This document shows, in pieces, positions 50,931-64,000 of a stretch of 64,000 nucleotides of DNA. Origin of the DNA: an uncultured Spartobacteria bacterium. GTDB lineage: Bacteria; Verrucomicrobiota; Verrucomicrobiia; Chthoniobacterales; Chthoniobacteraceae. How positions within the stretch are numbered: the stretch's first letter is position 1; every line of letters begins with the position of its first letter. The notes beneath the pieces are model-generated. The model saw only the letters and a program-made list of their open reading frames with translations. It made no database searches and was not told the DNA's origin. The DNA is taken from positions 1-64,000 of the forward strand of contig CAIRYQ010000010.1 of the NCBI GenBank assembly GCA_903882875.1, in the 5' to 3' direction. A program made the position numbers and the translations under genes.

Positions 50931-51344
50931 CCTAGTTCAGGAAATCAACCGGCGCTCCTAACCGGAGGCTGCTTCTTGCAAAATAGGCATCACCGACCTA
51001 GGCCATTTTTGGGGTGCAGTTTTCTGCAAGTAGCGGAATTCACCAAGGGACTCCGTTCTAATTTTTCCTAAAATGGGTGGCGGTAATTTTTCAGAAGCGG
51101 GTCACCCGGCATGCGTGGGTCGGAAGTCGACCGTTACATCGTTCCCACAAATCAGCCGTCTCCATTTACCGCGCGGTTTGCGTAAGGGCTCCTTGAAACA
51201 AGGACTCGCACCTTCGTGGCATGTCCATCGAAGGCAGATGAGGAGGAAGCAGAACAAGCAAATCCACCGTGCGTTTCAACTTGCGCTCAAACGGGCGCAC
51301 ATGCCGAACCCTCTGCCGATACTGCTCATGCCGCGCGCAGCGGC
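50931..51344. other. Non-coding stretch at left edge of accessory region
   Basis: About 414 bases that are more AT-rich than the flanking chromosomal genes. One small inverted repeat, TGCAG TTTT CTGCA, lies near 51016-51029. Reading frames across it have unlikely composition. It may contain the promoter of the XRE gene at 51345. Confidence 0.4.
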
Positions 51345-51674
51345 ATGCTGTATAAGAACCTCATCGGAGCGGAAATCAGGAAAAGGCGGGACCGCCTCGG
51401 TTGGAGTCAATCCGACCTGGCGGTGAGGTTGCAGCTTGCCGGTTGGGATATCGATCGCAGCCAACTTTCAAAGATCGAATGCCGCTTGGTTCATGTCAGC
51501 GATTTCCAACAACTGTATTTCGTGCGCGTTTTCAAAATAAGCCTCGACGAGCTTCTGCCCAACGTCGATCCGCTGGAGAAGATTAACGACTTTTTGGCGC
51601 GAACGATGGAGCGAAAACGGGCTCCAATTCCGAGAGGCAAGAAGCCGAAGGCAAGGAAACCAACGCAGAGTTAG
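51345..51674 (+). CDS. XRE-family HTH regulator, copy 1
   Basis: 109 residues. The ATG at 51345 starts right before the HTH. The motif is LIGAEIRKRRDRLGWSQSDL, then AVRLQLAGWDIDRSQLSKIE, a Cro/CI-type helix-turn-helix with a slightly long turn. A basic tail (RGKKPKARKP) follows. The gene 158 bases downstream encodes a clear paralogue. Likely an element-encoded repressor. Confidence 0.75.
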   Translation: MLYKNLIGAEIRKRRDRLGWSQSDLAVRLQLAGWDIDRSQLSKIECRLVHVSDFQQLYFVRVFKISLDELLPNVDPLEKINDFLARTMERKRAPIPRGKKPKARKPTQS

Positions 51675-51831
51675 AGCCGGACATTTTAGTGACCTCGCCG
51701 CGCCAGTTGCCGCCGCCAGAACAATCCGAATCGGAACGATTGGATTGAGACGATATTCCTGCGGCGGTTTCCCTCAGTTGGCGGGCAAATCATGCGCCAG
51801 AAGCAGCGCAAGGCGCGGATGATTCGGTGTT

Positions 51832-52155
51832 ATGAGTCTCCGCATGATGAAGATTTTCACGCATCGAAATCTAGTTGGACCAATCATCGGCCGGTTGCGG
51901 CGGAAGCGAGGTTGGACCCAGGCCGATTTTGCCGTTCATCTTCAGCTTGCCGGTTGGAATATCAGCCGCAGCGGAGTGGCAAAAATCGAAGCGCAGCTCG
52001 TGCATGTCGGCGACCGCGAAATTTGCTACCTGCGGCAAGTCTTGCGGGTGGACGTGAAAGAGCTGTTTCCACGTTTCGATCCTCACAAATCCATTCGCGA
52101 AGGAATAGCCGAGTTGTTGAGCAAAGAACCTGTCGGCGAAATGGTCGCTAATTGA
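51832..52155 (+). CDS. XRE-family HTH regulator, copy 2
   Basis: 107 residues; ATG at 51832 (another at 51847 is possible). LVGPIIGRLRRKRGWTQADF, then AVHLQLAGWNISRSGVAKIE, closely parallels copy 1, including the LQLAGW turn and the downstream LVHV segment. The two genes therefore arose by tandem duplication. Two related repressors side by side next to an integrase suggests control of a mobile element. Confidence 0.75.
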   Translation: MSLRMMKIFTHRNLVGPIIGRLRRKRGWTQADFAVHLQLAGWNISRSGVAKIEAQLVHVGDREICYLRQVLRVDVKELFPRFDPHKSIREGIAELLSKEPVGEMVAN

Positions 52156-52202
52156 CGCGTTTCGCGATTCACGCTCGGACATTCGATTTTCAGAACGACC
52201 TG

Positions 52203-52469
52203 ATGCTACGCGTCGAAATTCCAGATGACCTCCTGATCCGTGCCGTGAGTGACGCGGTCGAGCGCCAACTTTCGCGAATCAATGAATTCACCGGCTACGT
52301 CGATCTAAAGGGAGCCTGCAAATTCTTGTCCGTAGGCGAATCGCAGTTCAAGGAATGGGTGAGGATCGGCTACATCCACCCGCGTAAAGTCAGCTCGCAC
52401 CTCGTGCGTTACCGGCTCAAAGAACTTGAGAATTTTATGGAGGACTTCCTGATCAAAGCTCGGGTTTAG
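52203..52469 (+). CDS. Excisionase-like HTH_17 DNA-binding protein
   Basis: 88 residues from ATG 52203; a TTG at 52152 overlapping the upstream stop would extend it. The core YVDLKGACKFLSVGESQFKEWVRIG then HLVRYRLKELENFM has the pattern of MerR/excisionase-type winged helix proteins. Its stop overlaps the stop of the opposing integrase gene by 4 bases. Proposed role: directionality factor (Xis) or repressor for the integrase. Confidence 0.65.
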   Translation: MLRVEIPDDLLIRAVSDAVERQLSRINEFTGYVDLKGACKFLSVGESQFKEWVRIGYIHPRKVSSHLVRYRLKELENFMEDFLIKARV

Positions 52470-53680
52470 GCGGCGCGGCGGTGTGATGACTTTTGGGTGT
52501 TGTCCGCAGCACGAGTCTCCGTTGGGAGCACGGAGAACCAATCCGCCGCCTGTTTTTCCGTCACCAGTTCTCGATAATTCCGGAACAGCATCGTGGGCGA
52601 ATTTCCCATCTCTAAAGCCACCCGCGCCGCGTCTTTGATGTCGGCCAGCCGGTAGCTCGCGTAGCTGTGCCGCAAGGCGTTCGGCTTCCAGATGAATTCA
52701 ATGACCTCATTGCCTTCCTTGATGCTGCTTTTGCAAAACTTCTGTCGAGCCTCGCAGAGGGCATCGTTCCGTGTGTAGCCGACGACGTGGCCGGACTTTT
52801 GCCGGAGTGGCGTGAGCCAGGCCGTAAGCGCAGGCAGCAGTGGTACGAGCCGACGCGAAGCAGTCTTGGCCTTTTCAGCCGCGACCTCAATAAAGCCTTG
52901 ATCAAAGCGAATGTCGCCCCAATCAAGTCGCATGATTTCCTGACTGCGCAGGCCAGCCAGCGCACCAATGGCAAAAAATGGCAGCAGCTTTTCCGGGGCA
53001 TTCGAGAGCAGTAATCGCAGTTCACGAGGCGTGTAGATTTCAATCGCTCCTTCCCCCGAGTTCGCCGCCGCTACGTCCTCAACGACAGTCGGCTCATTCC
53101 TTGGCAGGTAACGCTTACCGCGGGCGTACCGGAAAAGCTGGAGAACGGCATTGCGGTAGTTGTTCCTTGTGCGCCCACTGACATTGAGGCCGTTCAACCA
53201 GACTTCGATTTCGTGCGTGCTGATTTGATCGATACGACCGGGAAACGCCGCAGCGAATTTGTTCATCCTGTATTTTCGATCCTCCAGATGGAAAAAGCTC
53301 ACACCTTCGACACGCTTTGAAGTGAGAAATTCTTCGGCAACTTCCGCAGCCGTTTTTGTGATGATGCGCGGTGTCTTGCCGCGTCCTGCAATCCACTCCT
53401 CAATCGCAGTCAGCAGAGACACGCCAAACGGCACGAGCTTGCCTTTGGCGAGTCGGTAATCCTCGACCTCCGCGAGTGTCATCGGTTTCTCGTGCGCTCG
53501 GCCCGAGGCAATTTGAGCAATGAGCCTTCGTGCTTCGATTTTTGCTGCGTCGAGGGAGGTGCGAGTGATTCTTTTTCGCGTCTTTCCGAGCAGAGTGGTG
53601 ACGCAAAAGCGCCCGTCGGAGAATTCGTAAATCGGGACGGAGATATTTCCCTCTTTGACATCGATGCGTTTCGTTTTCAC
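52466..53680 (-). CDS. Tyrosine recombinase / integrase
   Basis: 404 residues. The N-terminal SAM-like core-binding domain lies at about 108-195 (AEEFLTSKRVEGVSFFHLED, then RTRNNYRNAVLQLFRYA). The catalytic domain has Arg245 (LAGLRSQEI), probable Lys272, NALRHSYAS with Arg337 and Asn334 in place of the usual first His, MGNSP with Asn360 where His/Trp is usual, and nucleophile Tyr369 in LFRNYREL. Such substitutions occur in this integrase group, so activity remains plausible. A tRNA 3'-end fragment lies about 75 bases upstream of the start. Confidence 0.88.
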   Translation of the reverse strand: MKTKRIDVKEGNISVPIYEFSDGRFCVTTLLGKTRKRITRTSLDAAKIEARRLIAQIASGRAHEKPMTLAEVEDYRLAKGKLVPFGVSLLTAIEEWIAGRGKTPRIITKTAAEVAEEFLTSKRVEGVSFFHLEDRKYRMNKFAAAFPGRIDQISTHEIEVWLNGLNVSGRTRNNYRNAVLQLFRYARGKRYLPRNEPTVVEDVAAANSGEGAIEIYTPRELRLLLSNAPEKLLPFFAIGALAGLRSQEIMRLDWGDIRFDQGFIEVAAEKAKTASRRLVPLLPALTAWLTPLRQKSGHVVGYTRNDALCEARQKFCKSSIKEGNEVIEFIWKPNALRHSYASYRLADIKDAARVALEMGNSPTMLFRNYRELVTEKQAADWFSVLPTETRAADNTQKSSHRRAA

Positions 53681-53754
53681 GGGGAAAGAATCTGCCGCCG
53701 TGTCACGGAATTGTCACGCCAAATCCAAAATGGCCCTGGAAGCCGCATGGAATA

Positions 53755-53777
53755 TGGCGACCCTAACGGGATTCGAA
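53755..53777 (-). other. tRNA 3'-end fragment, candidate attachment-site core
   Basis: On the minus strand these 23 bases begin TTCGAATCCCG and end GTCGCCA. They fit the T-loop, the 3' T-stem strand, the acceptor strand, a discriminator base and encoded CCA of a tRNA. The bases before the T-loop are not a matching T-stem, so no complete tRNA is present. A free tRNA 3' end beside an integrase is the classic core of an att site. By orientation, the fragment would be the end opposite an intact tRNA, but no intact copy was found in this window. Confidence 0.6.
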
Positions 53778-54098
53778 AACTCGCTACTTTTTCCCCAGTT
53801 TGCATAAGTTTGCTCGCTGCTGCCACTTGCTGCGCACCTGGTTTTTGATCGATCGGCAAGAATGTGCAGAATTCGGCAACCAATCCGTCGTGAATTGTCG
53901 TGAAAAAAATGAGCGCGACATTGATGAACGAACGATGCGCTGACCACGCGGTCTCGATGAGGTCCGAATCCAAAAAAACTTTTGACAGGGGCCTGATCGT
54001 CGTTATCGTCATAGAAGTGACTGGAGTTCCGCGGGCCAAGTTGGCGGCGGGGTTCGCACTCACAAAGTTCTGCCTCGCTTCACCCGTGGAAGCGAGAG
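53778..54098. other. Region between integrase promoter side and HTH gene
   Basis: No convincing gene. Reading frames on both strands run through the tRNA fragment or lack domains. A possible promoter (TTGACA, listed separately) lies near its right end. The sequence is visibly more AT-rich than the flanking chromosome. Confidence 0.4.
53982..54009 (+). promoter_or_regulatory. Possible sigma-70-type promoter
   Basis: TTGACA at 53982-53987 followed 16 bases later by TATCGT (54004-54009). The -35 matches consensus, while the -10 is poor. It points toward the HTH and Rep genes. Confidence 0.3.
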
Positions 54099-54425
54099 TT
54101 GGGGCGAAAAGGATCAGGGCAGATCAGGATCTACGTTCGTAATCAAAACTTACGAGCGTCTCAAAAATCAAGATTGGTTCTCCTGACAAAAAAAGAAATC
54201 GCTGCCCGATACAGAGCATCGCTGCGGACAATCGGCAACTGGACTGGCCGGTTTTTACCGTCAATCAAGATCGGTGGGAAACGTCTGTATGACGCCGCCG
54301 CATGCGATGAAGTGGTTCGTGCTTTCGAGCACCGGCCCCGCCTGTCGAGGCAAACTGACAGGGACTGGCAAGCGCACAACCATGTCGATTCCGACAAGCG
54401 CGACAGCGAAGTCGAGGAACGATGA
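54099..54425 (+). CDS. Excisionase/MerR-like HTH protein upstream of Rep
   Basis: Up to 108 residues. Start uncertain: TTG at 54099, or TTG at 54174 directly before the HTH. The HTH core is LLTKKEIAARYRASLRTIGN, then GRFLPSIKIGGKRLYDAAA, typical of HTH_17 excisionase-like proteins. The tail is polar. A hairpin (54133-54159) lies in the possible extended 5' part, which favours the shorter protein. It is followed closely by the Rep gene and may regulate it. Confidence 0.55.
   Translation: MGRKGSGQIRIYVRNQNLRASQKSRLVLLTKKEIAARYRASLRTIGNWTGRFLPSIKIGGKRLYDAAACDEVVRAFEHRPRLSRQTDRDWQAHNHVDSDKRDSEVEER
54133..54159. repeat. Inverted repeat near HTH gene start
   Basis: ACGTTCGTAA (54133-54142), seven-base loop, TTACGAGCGT (54150-54159): complementary with one G-T pair. 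Just upstream, GATCAGG occurs twice within 20 bases (about 54111-54130). Could be an operator for the HTH protein or part of a replication region. Confidence 0.4.
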
Positions 54426-54454
54426 AGCCCAATCGGGATTCTGGAACAGTCACA

Positions 54455-54482
54455 CCCAGCCGCCGTCCCCTCGGCGGCTGGG
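54455..54482. repeat. Strong hairpin immediately upstream of Rep
   Basis: CCCAGCCGCCG (54455-54465), loop TCCCCT, CGGCGGCTGGG (54472-54482): a perfect 11-bp stem ending 3 bases before the GTG of the Rep gene. No T-tract follows. It could control Rep translation or be a nick-site or origin hairpin. Confidence 0.55.
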
Positions 54483-54485
54483 ATC

Positions 54486-55643
54486 GTGGCGACCTACCAA
54501 TTCCGTGTGACATGGTTCCACGATGCCTCGGGCTCGGTGGCGCAATTCGCGCCAACCGCCCTGTGGCGAGGATTTCGATGCCGAGGTTCTCGGCGGACAC
54601 GCAAATGCAGGAAATTGCCTTCTTCAAAAATCCAGCAACATACCCCCGACTGGGCCGCACGGCCTTCTCTTCTAGGTAATAATTCATCAAACACCCCACC
54701 ACCCAGCCTCCGCCCGCCTCCCTTCGAGGCAGGCTTCGTCCCGCCTGAATACCACGGTCGCGAACGTCAGTGGGAGCGGCGAAACTGCCCATCACACCGG
54801 CGAAAAGGTATCGTCGTCCTTAAGAACGCCATCGCCACTCTCCTTGAGAGGGAACCCTTGAGCCATGCCGGCGTGTTGCTCTTGAGGTTGACCGGCGAGG
54901 TGAGCAGTGCTGCCGCCAGAAAGCGGTTCGGAAAAATTACCTACACCCTGAACAAGCTTTTCAAATACCACTGCGGTGCCCTTGAGTTTGGCCGCGATGG
55001 CAGACTCCACATTCATCTTCTCGTCGTGGCGCAGAACGACATTGCTTCGGGTTTTGACAGGACTGCCTATCGGCAGTTTTGCCTTTTGCAGAAAGGCGAA
55101 CTCAACAGTTGTTTTTCCCCGGAAGAGAGGGCGGCATACAGACGGGAACTCCCGGCCAAGTTCAACCCGAACGAAAACTTGCGCAGGATTCGCGAGCAAC
55201 TGAACACCCGATTCGCGAACGGATCTCACGGCTTTAAGGAAGTGCGCATTCAGGATCTTGCGCCCATCATTGAAAATGCTGAGGCGGTTTCAAACTACCT
55301 CACGGCGGATCTCTACAAGCGCTCATCCGACTTCCAGCGTTACGTGAAACGGACTCGCATGATCGTGCTCCCCAGAAAAGTCCCCCGCAAAATGAACCGT
55401 TCGTTTTCATGGAACAACCGGCGGGGAAAACTGCACCGGAAAAAAGTGGGCACAATCGCCGGCTACCTCGGCCTAGACCGGGATGGCTTGAAAGTCAGGT
55501 TCGGAACCAGGGATTGGATGAAGAAAGTCGGCGCTCTCATCGGGTTGATTGAGCAAGCGCAACCGCTTTGGCCTGACATGTTTCCTTACCATTTCGACCC
55601 GGTCGTGTTCTGTCTGAATGTTGTCCGGAGCCGCGGATGGTAA
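54486..55643 (+). CDS. Candidate HUH-type replication initiator (Rep)
   Basis: 385 residues from GTG 54486; the N-terminal ~80 residues are Pro/Arg-rich and the true start may be later, although few in-frame alternatives exist. HUH-like features appear in order: a motif-I-like strand (AGVLLLRLTGEV, near 128-139), GRLHIHLLVVA with His-x-His at 175-177, and the helix AVSNYLTADLYKRS with Tyr271 and Tyr277 in the place of the nucleophile tyrosines. HUH endonucleases nick and join single-stranded DNA in rolling-circle replication of plasmids and phages. Strong hairpins flank the gene on both sides. The family call is by motif only. Confidence 0.55.
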   Translation: MATYQFRVTWFHDASGSVAQFAPTALWRGFRCRGSRRTRKCRKLPSSKIQQHTPDWAARPSLLGNNSSNTPPPSLRPPPFEAGFVPPEYHGRERQWERRNCPSHRRKGIVVLKNAIATLLEREPLSHAGVLLLRLTGEVSSAAARKRFGKITYTLNKLFKYHCGALEFGRDGRLHIHLLVVAQNDIASGFDRTAYRQFCLLQKGELNSCFSPEERAAYRRELPAKFNPNENLRRIREQLNTRFANGSHGFKEVRIQDLAPIIENAEAVSNYLTADLYKRSSDFQRYVKRTRMIVLPRKVPRKMNRSFSWNNRRGKLHRKKVGTIAGYLGLDRDGLKVRFGTRDWMKKVGALIGLIEQAQPLWPDMFPYHFDPVVFCLNVVRSRGW

Positions 55644-55690
55644 GGCGTCTTCCCACGCCCGTTGAGGGACTTCCCGATACCAAAAAAAGG

Positions 55691-55729
55691 ATTGAGCTGA
55701 GCGGCGGCGCAGCCGCCGTGAAGCTCAAT
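55691..55729. repeat. Long GC-rich hairpin downstream of Rep
   Basis: ATTGAGCT (55691-55698) pairs with AGCTCAAT (55722-55729). Inside it GCGGCGGC pairs with GCCGCCGT (one G-T), with GA opposite GA between the two stems and a GCA loop: an 18-position stem. It starts 47 bases after the Rep stop. It might terminate Rep transcription or belong to a replication origin. An imperfect second hairpin (TCCTGG ... CTAGGA) follows near 55786-55812. Confidence 0.5.
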
Positions 55730-55989
55730 TTGTGCGAACTGAGCGTGCCTCTCGGAGCCGGCTTGGGCAGTTTGCCGATGGGATGTCCTGGTTGAGCGAA
55801 GCGAGACTAGGACTCTCATCAGGCAAATGGTTACACCGGTTCCGGGTAGGTCCGGTCAGTGAGCACCGTCGTAGCAAGCGGACCACGTTTCACCTCAACC
55901 GGCATCAGGGTTTTGCGGTGCTGGCGACGGCCTTCGCCGATACTCGCAAGCGCATGTAATTTTCCGCATCCTTCTTCCTCAATCGCCGC
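55730..55989. other. Non-coding or unassigned stretch after Rep
   Basis: About 260 bases. A 75-codon reading frame (55732-55959) is Arg/Ser-rich without a domain and is not supported. Several short imperfect inverted repeats are present. Group II intron domain V was looked for and not found. Confidence 0.35.
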
Positions 55990-56085
55990 ATGAAACGCCT
56001 TTCCGGCCTGTTCCTGCCAGCCGGCCTCGTATTGCTGGCCCAGTTTGCGGTTCTTGCAGACGACGCGCTTACCCCTCGGCCATAA
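55990..56085 (+). CDS. 31-residue signal-peptide-only ORF, probable truncated gene
   Basis: ATG at 55990, stop TAA at 56083-56085. The product is MKRLSGLFLPAGLVLLAQ followed by FAVLADDALTPRP: a complete signal peptide with cleavage near LAD and only about eight residues after it. It looks like the 5' end of an exported-protein gene separated from its body, similar to the short ORF at 50754. A real micro-peptide is less likely. Confidence 0.35.
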   Translation: MKRLSGLFLPAGLVLLAQFAVLADDALTPRP

Positions 56086-56161
56086 AGTTGTACGGCCAGA
56101 CGAAAGTTAATCTTCCCCGCTGAGCGAATTTTTCACGGACTCCGAATGAACTGAAACGAAG

Positions 56162-56794
56162 TTATGGCGCACCGCGTGCCACGCCTTTTGTGCTTTTGAT
56201 AAGTTGTCGCAGCGACGACTCAGACTCTTTTCCCCAGTTAACCAGTGGCCGATGCGGGAAGCGGTGCGGAGCGCCGAGCATGCCGACATCAATGCCCTTC
56301 CACGCTTGGAACTCCTCTTTGCTGCCGAGGGTGACCTTGAGGGATGCGGAGAGCCCGAGCTTCGTCACCGCCTCACCGATTGCCCGTTCAAAAATGTAGG
56401 CCGCTTCTGTGAGGCGACCTTTGTGGAGGGCTGCCAACAGCACGGCGAGATAACGGTCAGATAGCAGGGTCAGGAGGAACACGAGGGAATCTTCAGAGTA
56501 CTGACGTTCCCGATCCAAAACGAAACCCTTGGATGCGGTCGAATATCGCCTGCCCAGCAAGTCCTTCGGCTTTCCCTTTTTCGACATGATGCTCTGGGGG
56601 TCAACGCCGTAGAGAATCATCAACTGGGTTGCAAAGCCTTCGTCAACCGTGCGAGCCCCCGACTCCCAAGATTTGTAGGTCGTGGCCGGAATGCGGATCT
56701 TCTTTTCCAAAAAGTCTGAGAATTCCTTTTGGGATTTTCCGAGGGCCTCGCGAAAAAGGCGCAGCGGTGTCTTGTGTTTGGGCAGGCGTGGCAT
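56162..56794 (-). CDS. XRE-like HTH protein with C-terminal domain of unknown function
   Basis: 210 residues. The N-terminus (LRLFREALGKSQKEFSDFLE, then IPATTYKSWESGARTV) is a Cro/CI-type HTH. Residues ~70-210 have no recognised domain; they are mixed helical and may sense or dimerise. Divergent from the ParB-like gene, with 179 bases between the starts, so it may repress that promoter. Confidence 0.65.
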   Translation of the reverse strand: MPRLPKHKTPLRLFREALGKSQKEFSDFLEKKIRIPATTYKSWESGARTVDEGFATQLMILYGVDPQSIMSKKGKPKDLLGRRYSTASKGFVLDRERQYSEDSLVFLLTLLSDRYLAVLLAALHKGRLTEAAYIFERAIGEAVTKLGLSASLKVTLGSKEEFQAWKGIDVGMLGAPHRFPHRPLVNWGKESESSLRQLIKSTKGVARGAP

Positions 56795-56973
56795 CGTGAA
56801 TCAACGGGTAGGATACATGTGTCTCTTAAACAACTTCTTCTTCATCCGGAAATGACTACGGTCGGAAAGTCGGTCAGCACCTTCGAGTGCAATCAAGCAT
56901 TATAAAAAAACCATCCGGCCATATCCGACACCCGTCACGGGCCGGTCATCAAAACGCGGCGGGTTACAACAAC

Positions 56974-58314
56974 ATGAGCAAACACCAAAAGGCCCTCAAC
57001 GAGGGCATCACCACCAAGGACTCCACCCTCGCGGGTAGCGCTGTGGAAGACGCCGCCACGGCCCCTACAGCCCCCGGGGATCATCCACAGCCGACTGCAG
57101 GTCGCTCGAACGAACAATGGCCCATTGACGACATCAAGCCGCACGCCATGAACGCCACGCTCTACGGCGATACCTGCGACCGGGCACTCATCGAGAGCAT
57201 CAAAGAACATGGCATCCTTGACCCCTTGGTCATCCTGCCCGACGGCACCCTCCTCGGCGGACATAGAAGGCTGGCGGCGGCACACCAACTGGAAATGACG
57301 ACTGTTCCGGTCCACATCATGCCGGTCTCCGATGAGCGCGACCCAGTCGGTGTCATCATCGGGCTCAACGTCAATCGCCCCAAGACCCCCACGATGAAGG
57401 TAAGGGAATACGCCGCGCTCATCGAGATCGAGGCCAGGAAGGCCAAAGGCCGACAAGGCCGGCGGAACATCCTGCCAGATTTGGCAGGAAGTGCCCGGGA
57501 GATCGCCGCCCTCAAGGTCGGGTTGAAACATGCGACCGCCGAGAAAGGTCTGAAGGTCATCGCCGTCATCGACAAGCACACCGGTGCCGCGGACGCCCGT
57601 GCTCTCCTGGATCTCATGAATTGCCGGAGCGTCGATGCCGCCTTCAAACAGGGACAGGCGCTTGGATGGATCAAGCAGATGCCACGTAAGCCAAGAGCGG
57701 GAGGAAAACCGCAGTCCAGTCCGAAAGCAGAACTGCAGACCAAACCGAACAACGAGAGACCACTCATCACGGAGCCGGAGGCACCACCAGCGAACGTGGA
57801 TCAACCCCTCGAAGGTGTCACGCCGCCGGCATCACCCGTGGGTGACACTCAGCCTGGATCGCAGGGCGCCGAATGTATGGTACCGGACGTCCCTCCGGCC
57901 GAGGGGCTGACGCATGATGCCGCCCAAACGCCGGACTCAGGTGCCGTAAATGAGGCACCAACCACGGATGCTCAGGTCATCACCACGGCCAAGGCCAAGT
58001 CCCAAAAACACCTCGCCGAACAGTTCCCGTTCAACTTCGCCGAAGACCCTGGCTTGATTGTCGATGGATGGTGCGACGGGGTTATTGATCAACAGCGGGT
58101 TCGTGAGGTGGTCGCGAGCTTTGCTGAAAACCTGAAGGGCGACAGCCCGCAGAATGTCACCGAGACCCAGCGCTTCACCGTGCAACTTGCGACGTTCGTC
58201 AACAGTATCGTTCCGGCCAACGCGACTGCAGCCACTTTGCGCAACCTCCTCGATGCAGCCGAGTGGATGTCCAAAACGATCGACGCCATATCAAGGACAA
58301 GGATTCGGCGCTGA
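56974..58314 (+). CDS. ParB-like nuclease/partition-domain protein
   Basis: 446 residues from ATG 56974 (an upstream ATG at 56887 is possible but adds a basic extension). The ParB N-terminal domain at about 45-170 has IDDIKPHAMNATLYGD, LIESIKEHGILDPLVILPDG and the CTP/DNA motif GGHRRLAAAHQ. A central helical part follows, then a Pro/Thr-rich disordered stretch (~265-370), then a C-terminal helical domain. No ParA gene adjoins it. It may be a plasmid- or element-type ParB/KorB-like regulator rather than a chromosomal segregation protein. Confidence 0.75.
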   Translation: MSKHQKALNEGITTKDSTLAGSAVEDAATAPTAPGDHPQPTAGRSNEQWPIDDIKPHAMNATLYGDTCDRALIESIKEHGILDPLVILPDGTLLGGHRRLAAAHQLEMTTVPVHIMPVSDERDPVGVIIGLNVNRPKTPTMKVREYAALIEIEARKAKGRQGRRNILPDLAGSAREIAALKVGLKHATAEKGLKVIAVIDKHTGAADARALLDLMNCRSVDAAFKQGQALGWIKQMPRKPRAGGKPQSSPKAELQTKPNNERPLITEPEAPPANVDQPLEGVTPPASPVGDTQPGSQGAECMVPDVPPAEGLTHDAAQTPDSGAVNEAPTTDAQVITTAKAKSQKHLAEQFPFNFAEDPGLIVDGWCDGVIDQQRVREVVASFAENLKGDSPQNVTETQRFTVQLATFVNSIVPANATAATLRNLLDAAEWMSKTIDAISRTRIRR

Positions 58315-60028: not shown

Positions 60029-60220
60029 TGAGGAGCCCTGCTTCCATCTCCACAACTCGCTCAGATTCGAGGCGTGAAGGGAATGTTTGAAAGCCTTGTT
60101 CCACACCGGGAAGTGGGCCACAAAGACACAGTTCATAGGGTTCAAGTCGGAGTGGCGTCTGACAGGTTGAAAAAAGGCCAACAGGGAAGACTCCAAGGAC
60201 ACATTGCGGAGGAAAACAAC

Positions 60221-60251
60221 AACCCGCTGCAGTGGGGCCGCAGCGGGTTGC
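60221..60251 (-). terminator. Rho-independent-type terminator for the SRAP operon
   Basis: CAACCCGCTGC (60221-60231), nine-base loop, GCAGCGGGTTG (60241-60251): a perfect 11-bp stem. On the minus strand it is followed by TTGTTTTCC, so it fits a terminator for the minus-strand genes ending at 60311. On the plus strand the tail is not T-rich. Confidence 0.65.
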
Positions 60252-60310
60252 CTCCGGTCTCACCTGATTTTCGCAGGTTCAAGTCATCCGAACTCTGACG
60301 ATGACGTCGG

Positions 60311-60991
60311 CTAAAACAGCTCCGGGCCGTCGTCCGGAGCGGGGCTCTTTGACGGACGGGTGATCATGAGCTTAGGCGTAGGCGGGATTTCTTCGTAGAG
60401 CAATGCGTCGGCGGGGAGGCCGCGGCAGAGGTGCATGAGGTGGTCGTCAGCCAGCGGCTCATCGCCGAGCCAGGCGAGGGCGTCGGCAGGGTCGAGCACG
60501 ACGGGCATGCGATCATGGAATTGCGCGGCCGTGGTGTTTGGTTCGGTCGTGACCATGGCGAAGCCGGTGGAACCGGAGCCGTCGGGATCCGCGTCCCACA
60601 GGCCCGCGACGAAGAACCATGTGTGCTCTTTGACGGTAAAGAGGACTTCGCCCTTTGCGCCGACAGGGCCGAGGCCAGGCTCGTAATAGCCGGTGGTGGG
60701 GATGAGGCAGCGGCGCTTCGCGGCGGATTGTTTCCATGTGGGCTTGGTGAGCAGGCCATCGCGACGGGCGTTGGTGATGAACTGCGGTTTCTCTCTGGCG
60801 TAGAAGGGCCACACGCCCCATCGCATTTCAACGAGGACAGGTCCGCTGTCTTCACGCCGGATGATACGCGCCTTGCGCTTGGGGTAGATGTGCCCCTGCA
60901 AGGTGGGATTGCCGGGGATGTAGAGGCCGGGCACGGACACCCGGACGGCTTCTTCCCACAGTTCCATCTGGTCGCGGTAGTGGTTGCACAT
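60311..60991 (-). CDS. yedK: SOS response-associated protein, SRAP/YedK/HMCES family
   Basis: 226 residues. The start at 60991 is fixed by the family rule that the mature protein begins with Cys2: it reads MCNHYRDQ. Other catalytic or binding residues are present: Asn74 in NARRD, Glu104 in RCLIPTTGYYEP, His159 in FHDRMP. SRAP proteins crosslink through Cys2 to abasic sites in single-stranded DNA and protect them. The C-terminus ends DDGPELF, which loosely resembles a beta-clamp-binding tail. The gene starts 4 bases after the upstream gene on the same strand, and both lie divergent from lexA. Confidence 0.93.
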   Translation of the reverse strand: MCNHYRDQMELWEEAVRVSVPGLYIPGNPTLQGHIYPKRKARIIRREDSGPVLVEMRWGVWPFYAREKPQFITNARRDGLLTKPTWKQSAAKRRCLIPTTGYYEPGLGPVGAKGEVLFTVKEHTWFFVAGLWDADPDGSGSTGFAMVTTEPNTTAAQFHDRMPVVLDPADALAWLGDEPLADDHLMHLCRGLPADALLYEEIPPTPKLMITRPSKSPAPDDGPELF

Positions 60992-60995
60992 GGCG

Positions 60996-61601
60996 TCAGG
61001 CAGCGCCCGCGGGGTGCAGGCCGGGGAAACGATACACGGTGAGCTGCATCGTTGCGCCGTCGAGCACTTCTTCGGGCATGCCGGAATCAATGGCGCGCTT
61101 CAGCGCAAGGCGGAAGGAGCCGGCAGTCTCTCCGGCAGCGCCGCCCTCGACTTCGACGACACCCGTGAAGTGGCCGCGCAGGTGTCGGGGAAAGGCGGGC
61201 GCGAAAGTGAAGACGACGGGTTTTGGGAAATACAGGTCGAGAGGTGGGGACATGCGGAGATTCACGGCCTCCTCGAAGCGGAACTGAAAGAGGGCTTGGA
61301 ACGGGCCGGTCTGGCTGAACTGATCGAGCGCCTCGGGACTGGGCGCTTCTTCGGCGGCGGCGTCCACCTCGTAAATGAAATCGCAGCAAGCCATGAGCAC
61401 TTGGTCGGCGAATTCCTCGAGGGACTCGTGCTCGTCGGCATCGAAGTCTGCGCTGACCAGGACGCCGAGGCGTTTCTCATCGGGGCCAGCGAATGGATCC
61501 GGGATGGAGAGGGTGACCTTGTCGCGCGGCAATGGATCGGGGACGTACGGGAGCATTTCTGCGACTGTCATGCCGACGACGATCTCTGCGAACTGTTGCA
61601 T
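60996..61601 (-). CDS. Unknown 201-residue protein co-operonic with SRAP
   Basis: 201 residues from ATG 61601. Not recognised. The N-terminal half is acidic (VSADFDADEHESLEEFADQ) with a CC pair at residues ~71-72. The middle is Phe/Pro-rich (QFSQTGPFQALFQFRFEEA, DLYFPKPVVFTFAPAFP). No signal peptide, membrane helix or known DNA-binding motif. The stop is 4 bases from the SRAP start, and the operon is divergent from lexA across a 155-bp gap holding a LexA-type palindrome. A role in the DNA-damage response is inferred from position only. The opposite strand is also open over this interval, but its product lacks any supporting context. Confidence 0.7.
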   Translation of the reverse strand: MQQFAEIVVGMTVAEMLPYVPDPLPRDKVTLSIPDPFAGPDEKRLGVLVSADFDADEHESLEEFADQVLMACCDFIYEVDAAAEEAPSPEALDQFSQTGPFQALFQFRFEEAVNLRMSPPLDLYFPKPVVFTFAPAFPRHLRGHFTGVVEVEGGAAGETAGSFRLALKRAIDSGMPEEVLDGATMQLTVYRFPGLHPAGAA

Positions 61602-61723
61602 GGGTGACTCCTATCGCGACGAACCCGAGCTCGCAAGCGGGCACGTCGCGAGATGGAATTGCTGCCACGCGGATGCGACATGAAGGCATCTGGGAAACTT
61701 GAGTTGACGTGAGGTGACGCGGC

Positions 61724-61747
61724 GATACCGTTCATTTGAACGGTATC
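61724..61747. promoter_or_regulatory. LexA operator (24-bp palindrome)
   Basis: Two 11-base arms, GATACCGTTCA and TGAACGGTATC, separated by TT: a perfect palindrome whose core CGTTC-ATTT-GAACG fits the Verrucomicrobia LexA motif TGTTC-N4-GAACA, with the outer T/A replaced by C/G. It ends 9 bases before the lexA ATG, so binding would block lexA expression (autoregulation), and it lies 123 bases from the divergent operon start. A TTGACG (61704-61709) upstream could be a -35 element. Confidence 0.85.
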
Positions 61748-61756
61748 CCGCGCACC

Positions 61757-62365
61757 ATGCTTACAGATCGACAACGAGAGATTTTGGACTTCATCCGCGA
61801 GGCACGCCGGTCACGCGGAGTCACGCCAACGAGCCGGGAGATTCAGCAACACCTCGGCCTCGCCAGCCAGTCCACGGTGATCGACCATCTGCGTGCTCTT
61901 GAAAACAAGGGTGCGCTGAGACGTGAGCCCCACAAGGCACGTGGATTGGTGCCCACCGACGAATACCGCGCTCAGCGGATGATCGAGATCCCAATTTACG
62001 GCACCATCCCCGCCGGGCTGCCCGCCGATGAGAGCCAGCAAGCCGATGGCTGCGTTTCGGTGGACGTGGAGACGCTGCGGCTTCCCAAAGGGGCCCGTGT
62101 CTTCGCCCTCAAGGTCCGTGGCGATTCGATGAATGGTGCCGGCATTCTGCCGGGTGACATTGTGGTGCTGGAATTCAAGGAGGCGAAGTCCGGTGACATC
62201 GTTGCCGCTCTCATTGATGGCGAGACGACGCTGAAGCGCTACGTGGTGCAGCGCGGCAAGCCGTTCCTCAAGGCGGAGAATCCGCGCTACACAAATCTCA
62301 TCCCGGCACAGGAACTCGTCATCCAAGGCGTGCAGATCGCGCTGTTGCGGGTGCTCAAACGGTAA
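61757..62365 (+). CDS. lexA: LexA repressor (SOS regulator, S24 self-cleaving)
   Basis: 202 residues, the usual LexA length. The ATG at 61757 gives the conserved start MLTDRQREILDFI; a TTG at 61736 lies inside the operator and is rejected. Winged HTH at residues 1-65 (PTSREIQQHLGLASQSTVIDH). Cleavage site Ala86-Gly87 in YGTIPAGLP, catalytic Ser124 in RGDSMNGAGI and Lys160 in ETTLKRY. RecA-stimulated self-cleavage should release the operator directly upstream. It is followed by a translesion-polymerase fusion gene 110 bases downstream on the same strand. Confidence 0.97.
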   Translation: MLTDRQREILDFIREARRSRGVTPTSREIQQHLGLASQSTVIDHLRALENKGALRREPHKARGLVPTDEYRAQRMIEIPIYGTIPAGLPADESQQADGCVSVDVETLRLPKGARVFALKVRGDSMNGAGILPGDIVVLEFKEAKSGDIVAALIDGETTLKRYVVQRGKPFLKAENPRYTNLIPAQELVIQGVQIALLRVLKR

Positions 62366-62382
62366 CAGCCCGTGAAGCGGCT

Positions 62383-62392
62383 CCGTTCATTT
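62383..62392 (+). promoter_or_regulatory. LexA half-site-like sequence upstream of the polymerase gene
   Basis: CCGTTCATTT is identical to the left half of the lexA operator (61728-61737) but is followed by CTCCGG instead of GAACGG. It may be a weak or decayed operator, or chance. Confidence 0.3.
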
Positions 62393-62475
62393 CTCCGGCC
62401 CGCAATCGGCTGGTGCGGCCCTGCCCGCAACCCGCGGTCGCAGCAGCTCGAACGTCCGCTCCACTACCGACGCAA

Positions 62476-64000
62476 ATGATCGTTCACCTCGACGCCGACG
62501 CATTTTTTGCGTCCGTCGAGCAGGCCGCCGATCCGAAGCTGAGAGGCAAGCCGGTGGCGGTCGGCGGCGACAGACGCGGCATCATCGCCTCGGCGAGCTA
62601 CGAGGCGCGGAAGCTCGGCATCTACACGCCGATGCCCACGGCACGGGCGCGGAAGCTGTGCCCGCGGCTCATCGTGCTGCCGGGTGATTTCGAGAAATAC
62701 GAACAGTTCTCGAAGTTCATGTTTTCCTACGCCTACGACTTCACACCCGAGGTGGAGATCGCATCGATCGACGAGGGCTATTTCGATTTGCGCGGCCATC
62801 ACAAACACCCGCCGCGTGAGGTCGCGGAAATCATCCGGCGGGCGATCCGGCAGAGCCTGAAGATCACCGTGTCCGAGGGCATCGCCTCGAACAAACTGAT
62901 CTCGCAGGTCGCATCGAAGCTCCGCAAGCCGGCGTGCTTTCTGGAAGTTCCGGATGGTGAGGAACGAAGCTTTCTCGCTCCGCTGCCGAACAAGTGGCTG
63001 CCCGGCGTCGGGCCGAAACTCGCGGGCACGCTGAATACGGCCGGCCTCGCCATCATCGAGCAAATCGCAGGCATGCCCGCCGACATGCTGGCGCTGCTCG
63101 TGGGAAGCTACGCACCGCAGCTCCGGGCATTTGCAAACGGTGTGGACGAGCGCCCCGTGGTGCGTGAGCCATCGGATGCCAAGAGCTACGGTGAGCAGGA
63201 CACCTTCGCCGAGGACGTGACGGACGAGGCATTCATCTTCGCCAAGCTCCGCAGCATCGCGGACCGGCTTGCGGCAAAGGTGCGTGAGGACGGGAAGAGC
63301 TTTCGCACGGTGACGCTCAAGCTCCGGTACAACGACATGCAGGACGTCACCCGGAGCGTGAGTCTTGGGGAGCCCGCGGATCTCGAACAGGACATCTACC
63401 CGTTGCTGCCGGCGCTTGTTCGCAAGGCATGGGATCGCCGCGTGAGCATCCGCATGGTGTCGCTGCGACTGTCGGGCATCTACGGCGGCATCTTCCGCAG
63501 CGAGCTGGCGCTCGATGAGCAGAGCCGCAAGCGCGAGAACGAGCAGCGGCTCGCGAAGGTGATCGACGGCCTGCGCGGCGACCACTCGATCATGCGCGGC
63601 CATGATCTGTGGCTCAAACAGCGGGAGGGAAAGCCACGCGCCGACACTGAGCGAACGCACACGCGAAAGCCGGTCACACCGACGAAGTCCCGCGTCCGCG
63701 ATTTCGTTCCGCTCAACGTCAAAAGCCATTACGACTTCCTCGATTCGGCGCTCTCGATTCCGGCGATCATCGAGGCAGCGCAAGAGACGGGAGCGAAGGC
63801 GCTCGCCATCACCGATCCCAATTTGCACGGGGCGGTCGAATTCTTCACGGCGGCACGCGACGCCGGGATCAAACCCATCATCGGCGCGGAGGTCACCAGT
63901 GATGGCCATCCGCTGAATCTCTACGTTGAAAATGCACAGGGCTACGCGAACCTCTGCCGACTTCTGACTTCGCCAGCCATTACGGCCGCGTTGTTGCAAA
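62476..64000 (+). CDS. Y-family DNA polymerase (DinB-like) fused to DnaE-type PHP domain; runs off the window
   Basis: At least 508 residues, open at the window end. Residues 1 to about 355 are a Y-family polymerase: MIVHLDADAFFASVEQ at the start (catalytic Asp6), YEARKLGIYTPMP, and IASIDEGYFDL with Asp99/Glu100, so the polymerase residues are intact, unlike ImuB. Helix-hairpin-helix (LPNKWLPGVGPKLAG) and little-finger regions follow. After a basic linker (~380-409), residues 410-508 match the PHP domain that begins C-family polymerases (FVPLNVKSHYDFLDSALS, AITDPNLHGAVEFF, IKPIIGAEV). The metal-binding His-x-His is replaced by Pro-x-Asn, so the PHP is probably inactive. The remainder of a DnaE polymerase is expected beyond the window. 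Confidence 0.9.
   Translation, partial: MIVHLDADAFFASVEQAADPKLRGKPVAVGGDRRGIIASASYEARKLGIYTPMPTARARKLCPRLIVLPGDFEKYEQFSKFMFSYAYDFTPEVEIASIDEGYFDLRGHHKHPPREVAEIIRRAIRQSLKITVSEGIASNKLISQVASKLRKPACFLEVPDGEERSFLAPLPNKWLPGVGPKLAGTLNTAGLAIIEQIAGMPADMLALLVGSYAPQLRAFANGVDERPVVREPSDAKSYGEQDTFAEDVTDEAFIFAKLRSIADRLAAKVREDGKSFRTVTLKLRYNDMQDVTRSVSLGEPADLEQDIYPLLPALVRKAWDRRVSIRMVSLRLSGIYGGIFRSELALDEQSRKRENEQRLAKVIDGLRGDHSIMRGHDLWLKQREGKPRADTERTHTRKPVTPTKSRVRDFVPLNVKSHYDFLDSALSIPAIIEAAQETGAKALAITDPNLHGAVEFFTAARDAGIKPIIGAEVTSDGHPLNLYVENAQGYANLCRLLTSPAITAALLQ

Follow-up and report, generated by a model that had tools for sequence, protein, structure and literature searches.

A LexA-linked cassette of Verrucomicrobiota encodes a Y-family and a C-family DNA polymerase in one predicted chain

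Introduction

What kind of lesion-tolerance system is encoded where a lexA gene is followed by a single frame that runs through two DNA polymerases? Insertion opposite a lesion and extension beyond it are usually split between enzymes that exchange at the primer end. We addressed this question for the end of a 64,000-nucleotide stretch (the window) from an uncultured Spartobacteria bacterium, which belongs to contig C10 (81.6 kb) of a 5.78 Mb assembly of 129 contigs (completeness 96.18, contamination 1.92%). Here, SRAP and an orphan gene for a 201-amino-acid (aa) protein on the minus strand diverge from lexA and a polymerase fusion (PolY::DnaE) on the plus strand, a gene order correctly recognized in an original prediction made from the window alone (Table 1). 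We consider the locus quite probably a self-regulated SOS translesion cassette.

Results

One frame carries two polymerases with conserved active sites

The fusion is one 1386-aa frame when counted from GTG 62413, and was read beyond the window in the contig to its end near 66573. The polymerase probably starts at ATG 62476 and not at this GTG, since M22 is the first methionine common to the copies, frame starts aside; the SRAP frame likewise reaches upstream beyond the real start of the gene. The domains of the fusion are IMS, IMS_C, PHP, Pol III alpha, finger and HHH_6. Residues 22-356 make up a Pol IV-like Y-family polymerase, after which come a short motif, a linker, PHP, palm/NTPase, finger, HhH and OB, with the OB match slightly below its cut-off. 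Comparison with solved structures matched the halves separately to DNA polymerase IV and DNA polymerase III alpha.

All 31 full-length fusions compared keep D27, D29, D120, E121 and the aromatic residue at the steric gate in the Y-family half, and D739, D741, D890 and a GS pair in the C-family half; we take the Asp and Glu residues to be catalytic and the aromatic residue to act as the steric gate. Before the linker, all 31 also carry a motif resembling the RecA N terminus (RecA-NT), of the form R-x-L-A-x-x-V-D-x-L-R...I-x-R-G-H-D-L-x-L, whose likeness to the organism's own RecA (LDMVLQTIVKEYGDGAIMRLGD) was judged by eye. This would correspond to the RecA-NT motif described for Y-family members of mutasomes (PMC6511836) and may allow the fusion to dock on RecA.

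An ordinary SOS-induced Pol IV could instead have been fused to DnaE by chance, with only one half working in vivo, as in ImuA-ImuB-DnaE2, where the Y-family part is a scaffold. The Y-family member of that system is catalytically dead (PMC6511836), and the linker ranges from 21 to 133 residues, so a fixed geometry would be unneeded. However, the catalytic residues of both halves are kept in every full-length fusion, and the rate of non-synonymous substitution (dN) in PolY is 0.018-0.019 between two copies in the window genome, the lowest of all parts compared. We therefore regard this explanation as unlikely.

The DnaE part of the window copy contains QGYLF, a candidate beta-clamp motif; as the region cannot be aligned across all 31 fusions, we make no claim for it. 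The fusion of a congener, G415 (L065), contains a 51-residue in-frame insertion at about residues 640-690 (TGILPV... type), which resembles a translated short genomic repeat.

The fusion is scattered through Verrucomicrobiota

Using three fusions as queries, we scanned one genome per species across 84,980 species and obtained 49 loci, all under Verrucomicrobiota-type titles or plain 'bacterium' metagenome-assembled genome (MAG) titles. Both polymerases share one frame in 33 loci (31 at first, with two more resolved later), 4 loci from subdivision 6 have separate polymerase genes, and 12 have PolY only, some being cut by contig ends. The fusion was found in 4 of 387 evenly sampled genomes of the phylum, in one as two contig-edge pieces, and in 2 of 40 genomes of the family. 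On this sampling of sequences, it is a clade-wide Verrucomicrobiota enzyme scattered through the phylum.

In the DnaE tree, fused DnaE forms one clade (100/100) that includes the separate subdivision-6 DnaE. This clade is sister (96/93) to dinB-linked DnaE of Bacteroidota together with DnaE of Desulfosarcina, where the gene order is lexA-DUF72-PolY-DnaE, and lies outside both ImuB-linked DnaE2 and DnaE1. The PolY tree, poorly resolved and with several long branches, was not used. Best hits on plasmids include unfused dinB-dnaE pairs of Bacteroidota, and the three annotated pairs that we opened have SRAP alongside in two and a repressor-type gene in two.

These features align with the DnaE2B-PolY-RecA module of Bacteroidetes, which consists of two proteins (Timinskas et al. 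2026, PMC12926913). Like that module, the fusion combines an apparently active PolY bearing a RecA-NT motif with an apparently active DnaE2 outside the ImuA/ImuB group, and its nearest DnaE relatives in the tree include the dinB-linked ones of Bacteroidota; unlike it, the fusion is a single frame. It is, as far as its sequence tells, a one-chain version of this kind of module. The parts of PMC12926913 that we cite describe 11 module types, none as a fusion, and 'LexA' does not occur in its main text. The lexA-imuA-imuB-dnaE2 operon is similar in linking LexA to a Y-family member and DnaE2, but its ImuB is inactive, whereas the Y-family half of the fusion keeps its four acidic residues, and the fused DnaE falls outside the ImuB-linked clade. 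No imuA was seen in the cassette neighbourhood, which was the extent of the search. No published report of a PolY-DnaE single chain was found in partial coverage of the literature, which leaves room for prior mention.

In G387, which belongs to another genus and lacks the fusion, a 41-residue remnant 80% identical to the C-terminal end of the fusion (L039:5923-6045) suggests past gain and loss. Sister-genus genomes (L040, L041, L042) carry lexA-PolY followed by a 5'-3' exonuclease-like gene, without DnaE.

lexA and the fusion recur as a unit within the assembly

Contig C111 carries a second intact fusion with lexA, its protein being 90% identical to the window copy; on C59, the PolY gene behind lexA breaks off after 55 residues, and C81 holds a 3' fusion remnant with stops. 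Nucleotide homology between C10 and C111 is confined to lexA and the fusion, beginning at the start of the former and ending at the stop of the latter (84% over 4842 columns). Present only once each in the genome, SRAP and the 201-aa gene lie outside the repeated unit. From these alignments, the portable unit is lexA plus the fusion. Within the assembly, PF01726 lexA genes were found on C10, C111 and C59 only. Of nine congeners, only G415 has a PF01726 lexA, beside its fusion; two show a weak match, next to an imu-type cassette, and the remaining six lack such a gene. The congeners with an imu-type cassette instead are G417 and G418.

Several cassettes in one assembly might also reflect contamination by a congener, as opposed to duplication in one cell. 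The contig number and contamination estimate given above would permit this, tetranucleotide profiles fail to separate the assembly from congeners (0.71-0.76 for window pieces against G415), and C81 is an outlier in this measure. However, C111 and C59 reach 0.64-0.76 against window pieces, nearly the values of window pieces among themselves (0.73-0.80), and another assembly likewise holds two SRAP-S24-PolY loci (L066, L110). Contamination thus appears improbable.

Cassette LexAs diverge in DNA-binding domain and operator

The window LexA matches PF01726 (E 7.5e-22), PF00717 (E 1.4e-20) and TIGR00498 (152.9 bits, cut-off 110.95), and combines a winged helix-turn-helix (HTH) with an S24 domain having an Ala-Gly cleavage site and Ser/Lys, which identifies it as LexA. 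At its own promoter lies a perfect 24-bp palindrome, GATACCGTTCA-TT-TGAACGGTATC, with a score that none of 300 Markov resamplings of the sequence upstream attained; the LexA-type palindrome of the original prediction is thus confirmed as a predicted operator. Its core, CCGTTCA-NN-TGAACGG, has one perfect site in 5.78 Mb, the operator itself, one site with a single mismatch, inside a predicted gene, and 37 with two mismatches (39 in total versus 12 for the reversed pattern). No evident SOS gene was found at the 13 of these 37 sites that were opened. The C111 operator, AGTGTAT-N4-ATACACT, occurs at C111, at C59 with one mismatch and at one further site with two.

Between the C10 and C111 LexAs, 91% of C-terminal residues are shared and 60% of those in the HTH. 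Recombination was considered as the source of HTH divergence and rejected: synonymous substitution (dS) is only slightly higher in the HTH (1.39) than in the C-terminal part (1.04) while dN is much higher (0.231 and 0.055). This points to faster amino-acid change and not a swapped domain, although not firmly, as dS is near saturation. Across 24 fusion-linked LexAs, mean identity is 0.479 in the HTH and 0.650 in the C-terminal part (ratio 0.737), compared with 0.592 and 0.640 (0.922) for 32 LexAs not directly before PolY. In the sister-genus LexAs (four, including L043), the HTH is more conserved than the C-terminal part (1.164).

Operator cores of the cassettes include CGTTC, TGTAT, TATTC, TATAC, TGTCC, TGCCT, TGCTT and others, and some pair with recognition-helix patterns (S[MV]K with TAxxC, SKT with TGTCC). 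By sequence comparison, the DNA-binding domains of cassette LexAs evolve fast, and their operators vary. Co-variation of operator and HTH is suggestive only: in 21 cassettes r = 0.38 (3/2000 permutations), falling to 0.24 (113/2000) when overall LexA distance is allowed for, and for the full set of 39 LexAs whose operator was called, r = 0.03 (704/2000). Automatic operator calls are noisy, reaching p < 0.05 in 19 of 33 cassettes and 10 of 29 non-cassette LexAs. In G415, a TGTAT-AAAC-ATACA palindrome ahead of a small Cdd1 gene escaped them and was found by eye. A Limisphaera MAG (L081) has tandem TGTTC-N4-GAACA palindromes before lexA. Changes of the LexA motif have been explained by a duplication model (PMC8565304), as far as set out there, and the LexA and operator divergence between copies in one assembly fits that model.

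SRAP is an optional partner and the 201-aa protein is lineage-specific

SRAP matches PF02586 (E 1.7e-34). From its start at ATG 60991 (MCN), Cys2, Asn74, Glu104 and His159 are all kept, as in SRAP/YedK active sites, and are presumably catalytic. SRAP adjoins 3 of the 31 full-length fusions (window, G187 and G427, the last with SRAP beside the fusion at both of its loci). Among genomes with a fusion or PolY, 9 of the 35 searched carry SRAP, as do 4 of 40 family genomes. With the plasmid pairs above, this indicates at sequence level that SRAP is a recurrent but optional partner of such modules. Operons that combine SRAP with DinB, LexA and, in some cases, a DnaE paralog have been described (Aravind et al. 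2013, PMC3765255); this partner set is the same, and neither a fusion nor a divergent layout is mentioned in the parts of that paper relevant here.

The 201-aa gene, 4 nt from SRAP, is probably cotranscribed with it, and its G+C by codon position (0.72/0.43/0.76) is like that of lexA (0.68/0.42/0.72). Its product has zero matches in Pfam, NCBIfam, PHROGs and PADLOC, and no relatives in 387 phylum genomes besides its own or in viral contigs, plasmids, phages and genome contigs. The sole weak relative in the family (1 of 39 other genomes) is a 113-aa open reading frame in G403, 32% identical over 53 aa, located 3' of a DUF72 gene. A single-sequence fold prediction was uninformative (predicted local distance difference test, pLDDT, 37.3). 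The original prediction had singled out this protein as the piece without precedent. With no conserved relatives, it was rejected as the key piece and no function is proposed; it is the fused polymerase and its LexA partner that lack clear precedent. Several genes are optional additions, the 201-aa gene among them; in G415 a Cdd1 helix-hairpin-helix gene lies between a TGTAT-type palindrome and lexA.

Could SRAP, the 201-aa gene, lexA and the fusion nevertheless form one unit under one operator, as first proposed? The divergent arms are separated by a 155-bp gap holding a single palindrome, about 134 bp from the start of the 201-aa gene, and SRAP recurs beside the fusion in G187 and G427 and beside dinB-dnaE on plasmids. 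However, the 201-aa gene is missing from all 49 loci of the species-wide scan, and neither this gene nor SRAP accompanies the remaining copies in the window genome or the copy of G415. In G187 and G427, SRAP is on the same strand as the fusion, unlike in the window, and the operator is downstream of SRAP, so it does not obviously control SRAP there. A four-gene unit is accordingly doubtful. Of the original proposal, a LexA-operated lesion-tolerance cassette with SRAP as a recurrent associate is supported, while the four-gene set, not conserved as a neighbourhood, is not.

DUF72 genes lie near the C111 cassette (L035:2713-3636), by the G403 relative (L060:5069-6103) and in the Desulfosarcina operon (L213:2186-2992); DUF72 is a possible further partner of the cassette.

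An S24 protein persists beside the polymerase

An S24 protein is encoded directly upstream of 23 of the 31 full-length fusions, as LexA with an HTH in 20 and without an HTH in 3. HTH-less forms measure 150 aa in G187 and G427 (which has two such loci), 138 aa in L080, where a contig end truncates the fusion, and 208 aa in L088, where the N terminus is unrelated. They retain Ala-Gly, Ser and Lys, with dN/dS of about 0.06 between G187 and G427. TGTTC-TAAA-GAACA precedes the gene in G187 and G427, and TGTTC-AATA-GAACA in L080; TGTTC-N4-GAACA is reportedly the operator type of Verrucomicrobia LexA. Elsewhere in its genome, G187 also encodes a full LexA of its own.

In six subdivision-6 loci, a 105-115-aa S24-fold protein with no DNA-binding domain stands directly before PolY. 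Alignment revealed no cleavage site and replacement of Ser by Gln and Lys by Thr; dN/dS is 0.02-0.16, with some dS saturated. Pfam gave 0 families for the 105-aa protein and, for one relative, a match at E 0.16, so that the link to S24 rests on our own profile (E 1e-8 to 1e-5) and a fold match. The predicted structure of one such protein (pLDDT 82.9, predicted template modelling score 0.70, from an alignment that contained clear S24 proteins) matches LexA C-domains (E 1.9e-6) and UmuD' (E 1.6e-5). Judged by substitution rates, HTH-less S24 proteins are under purifying selection despite the lost DNA-binding domain and, in subdivision 6, lost protease residues. Because the protein outlives DNA binding and self-cleavage beside the same polymerase, a structural role like that of UmuD' is suggested.

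We tentatively propose that the cassette LexA doubles as a UmuD-like subunit, being the gene's repressor and, once cleaved, the enzyme's activator or manager. This possibility follows from the retention of the C-terminal domain while DNA-binding domain and operator change fast, from the four genomes that keep an S24 protein after losing the DNA-binding domain, and from the subdivision-6 loci; the repressor half can be dispensable when the host LexA takes over the operator. Pol V (UmuD'2-UmuC-RecA) is similar in that the gene for an S24 protein immediately precedes that of a Y-family polymerase bearing a RecA-binding motif, and the HTH-less forms of 138-150 aa add to the likeness, but the polymerase half here is Pol IV-like and fused to DnaE. 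UmuDAb of Acinetobacter (PMC4807011), an S24 protein tied to an error-prone polymerase, likewise has a DNA-binding domain and acts as a repressor; there a UmuD turned repressor, whereas here a LexA would also serve a polymerase. Three points weigh against the proposal. An S24 gene is missing immediately upstream of 8 of the 31 full-length fusions, 5 of which start with a TGTTC-N4-GAACA palindrome instead. The S24 sequence that was tested resembles LexA more closely than UmuD. Finally, the known hybrid UmuDAb is reported in PMC4807011 to have failed to replace UmuD.

Locus layout and neighbouring genes

Features of the locus are collected in Table 1. The GAAACTTGAGTTG element sits about 63-66 nt before lexA in the window, C111 and C59 copies. 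The evidence for the hairpin 3' of SRAP is weak, since 2 terminator-like sites were found in the scanned region versus 1.4 expected.

Table 1. Features of the lexA-fusion locus in the window.
Feature	Position	Strand	Remarks
Terminator-like hairpin 3' of SRAP gene	60218..60252	-	15-pair stem, then T-rich tail
SRAP gene, 226 aa	60311..60991	-	PF02586 match, active residues present
201-aa orphan gene	60996..61601	-	Stop 4 nt before SRAP start
GAAACTTGAGTTG element, candidate -35 region	61694..61706	+	Common to C111 and C59 copies
Predicted LexA operator, 24-bp perfect palindrome	61724..61747		CGTTC-N4-GAACG core
lexA, 202 aa	61757..62365	+	Winged HTH and S24 autoprotease domain
PolY::DnaE fusion gene	62476..64000	+	Cut by window end; continues in contig to about 66573
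Y-family (Pol IV-like) polymerase region, predicted active	62476..63480	+
RecA-N-terminus-like motif	63526..63615	+	Residues 372-401, ...LAKVIDGLRGDHSIMRGHDLWL
Variable linker joining the two polymerases	63616..63702	+
Start of C-family (DnaE) part	63703..64000	+	PHP domain without its first His pair

Upstream, positions 51216-58314 of the window resemble an integrated element, with an integrase-like gene (52466-53680, minus strand), XRE-like genes and a ParB-like gene (56887-58314), identities judged by eye. On the 3' side of the cassette (L002:9365-20000, C10 about 69364-79999) are a Fic-like protein and a type I-G CRISPR-Cas operon with, by PADLOC models, Cas3, a HEAT-CxxC-PD-DEXK protein, Cas8g, Cas7g, Cas5/6g and Cas4-Cas1.

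Discussion

Gene order, operator, domain make-up, active-site residues, clade-wide conservation, occurrence in more than one copy and divergence of LexA and operator can be read from the sequences, and on them we base the following model. LexA would bind the palindrome over its own promoter and keep lexA and the polymerase gene off, until DNA damage gives rise to RecA filaments, LexA cleaves itself and the cassette is switched on. The product would be a single chain with two active polymerases, one of the Y family and one of the C family (DnaE2B-like), covalently joined with a RecA-docking motif between them. Docked on RecA, its Y-family half would insert opposite the lesion and its DnaE half would extend, with no swap of partners. 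SRAP, encoded divergently with the 201-aa protein, would guard abasic sites, and its arm may be under the same control.

Several observations weigh against this model. The C10 operator core, within two mismatches, is absent from C12, the contig with recA, where a weaker site is possible, and the C111 operator is likewise absent there; because its own operator was not seen before recA, the window LexA may be a private repressor and not the SOS master. No sigma-70-like promoter was found at the locus. SRAP appears to be an addition, given that the C10-C111 homology leaves it out. The two-step bypass is a proposal drawn from the presence of two active sites, and the first two PHP histidines (HxH) are kept in 10 of the 31 full-length fusions, which makes proofreading doubtful in most; we make no claim for it.

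A natural chain with both active sites would make the hand-off between polymerases testable in one protein. LexA and its operator differ between copies in one assembly, which is the step proposed for LexA motif evolution in PMC8565304, as outlined there. If the S24 partner is indeed a polymerase subunit, one gene would be shared by repressor and polymerase subunit, and the evolution of the repressor would be tied to that of the mutasome.

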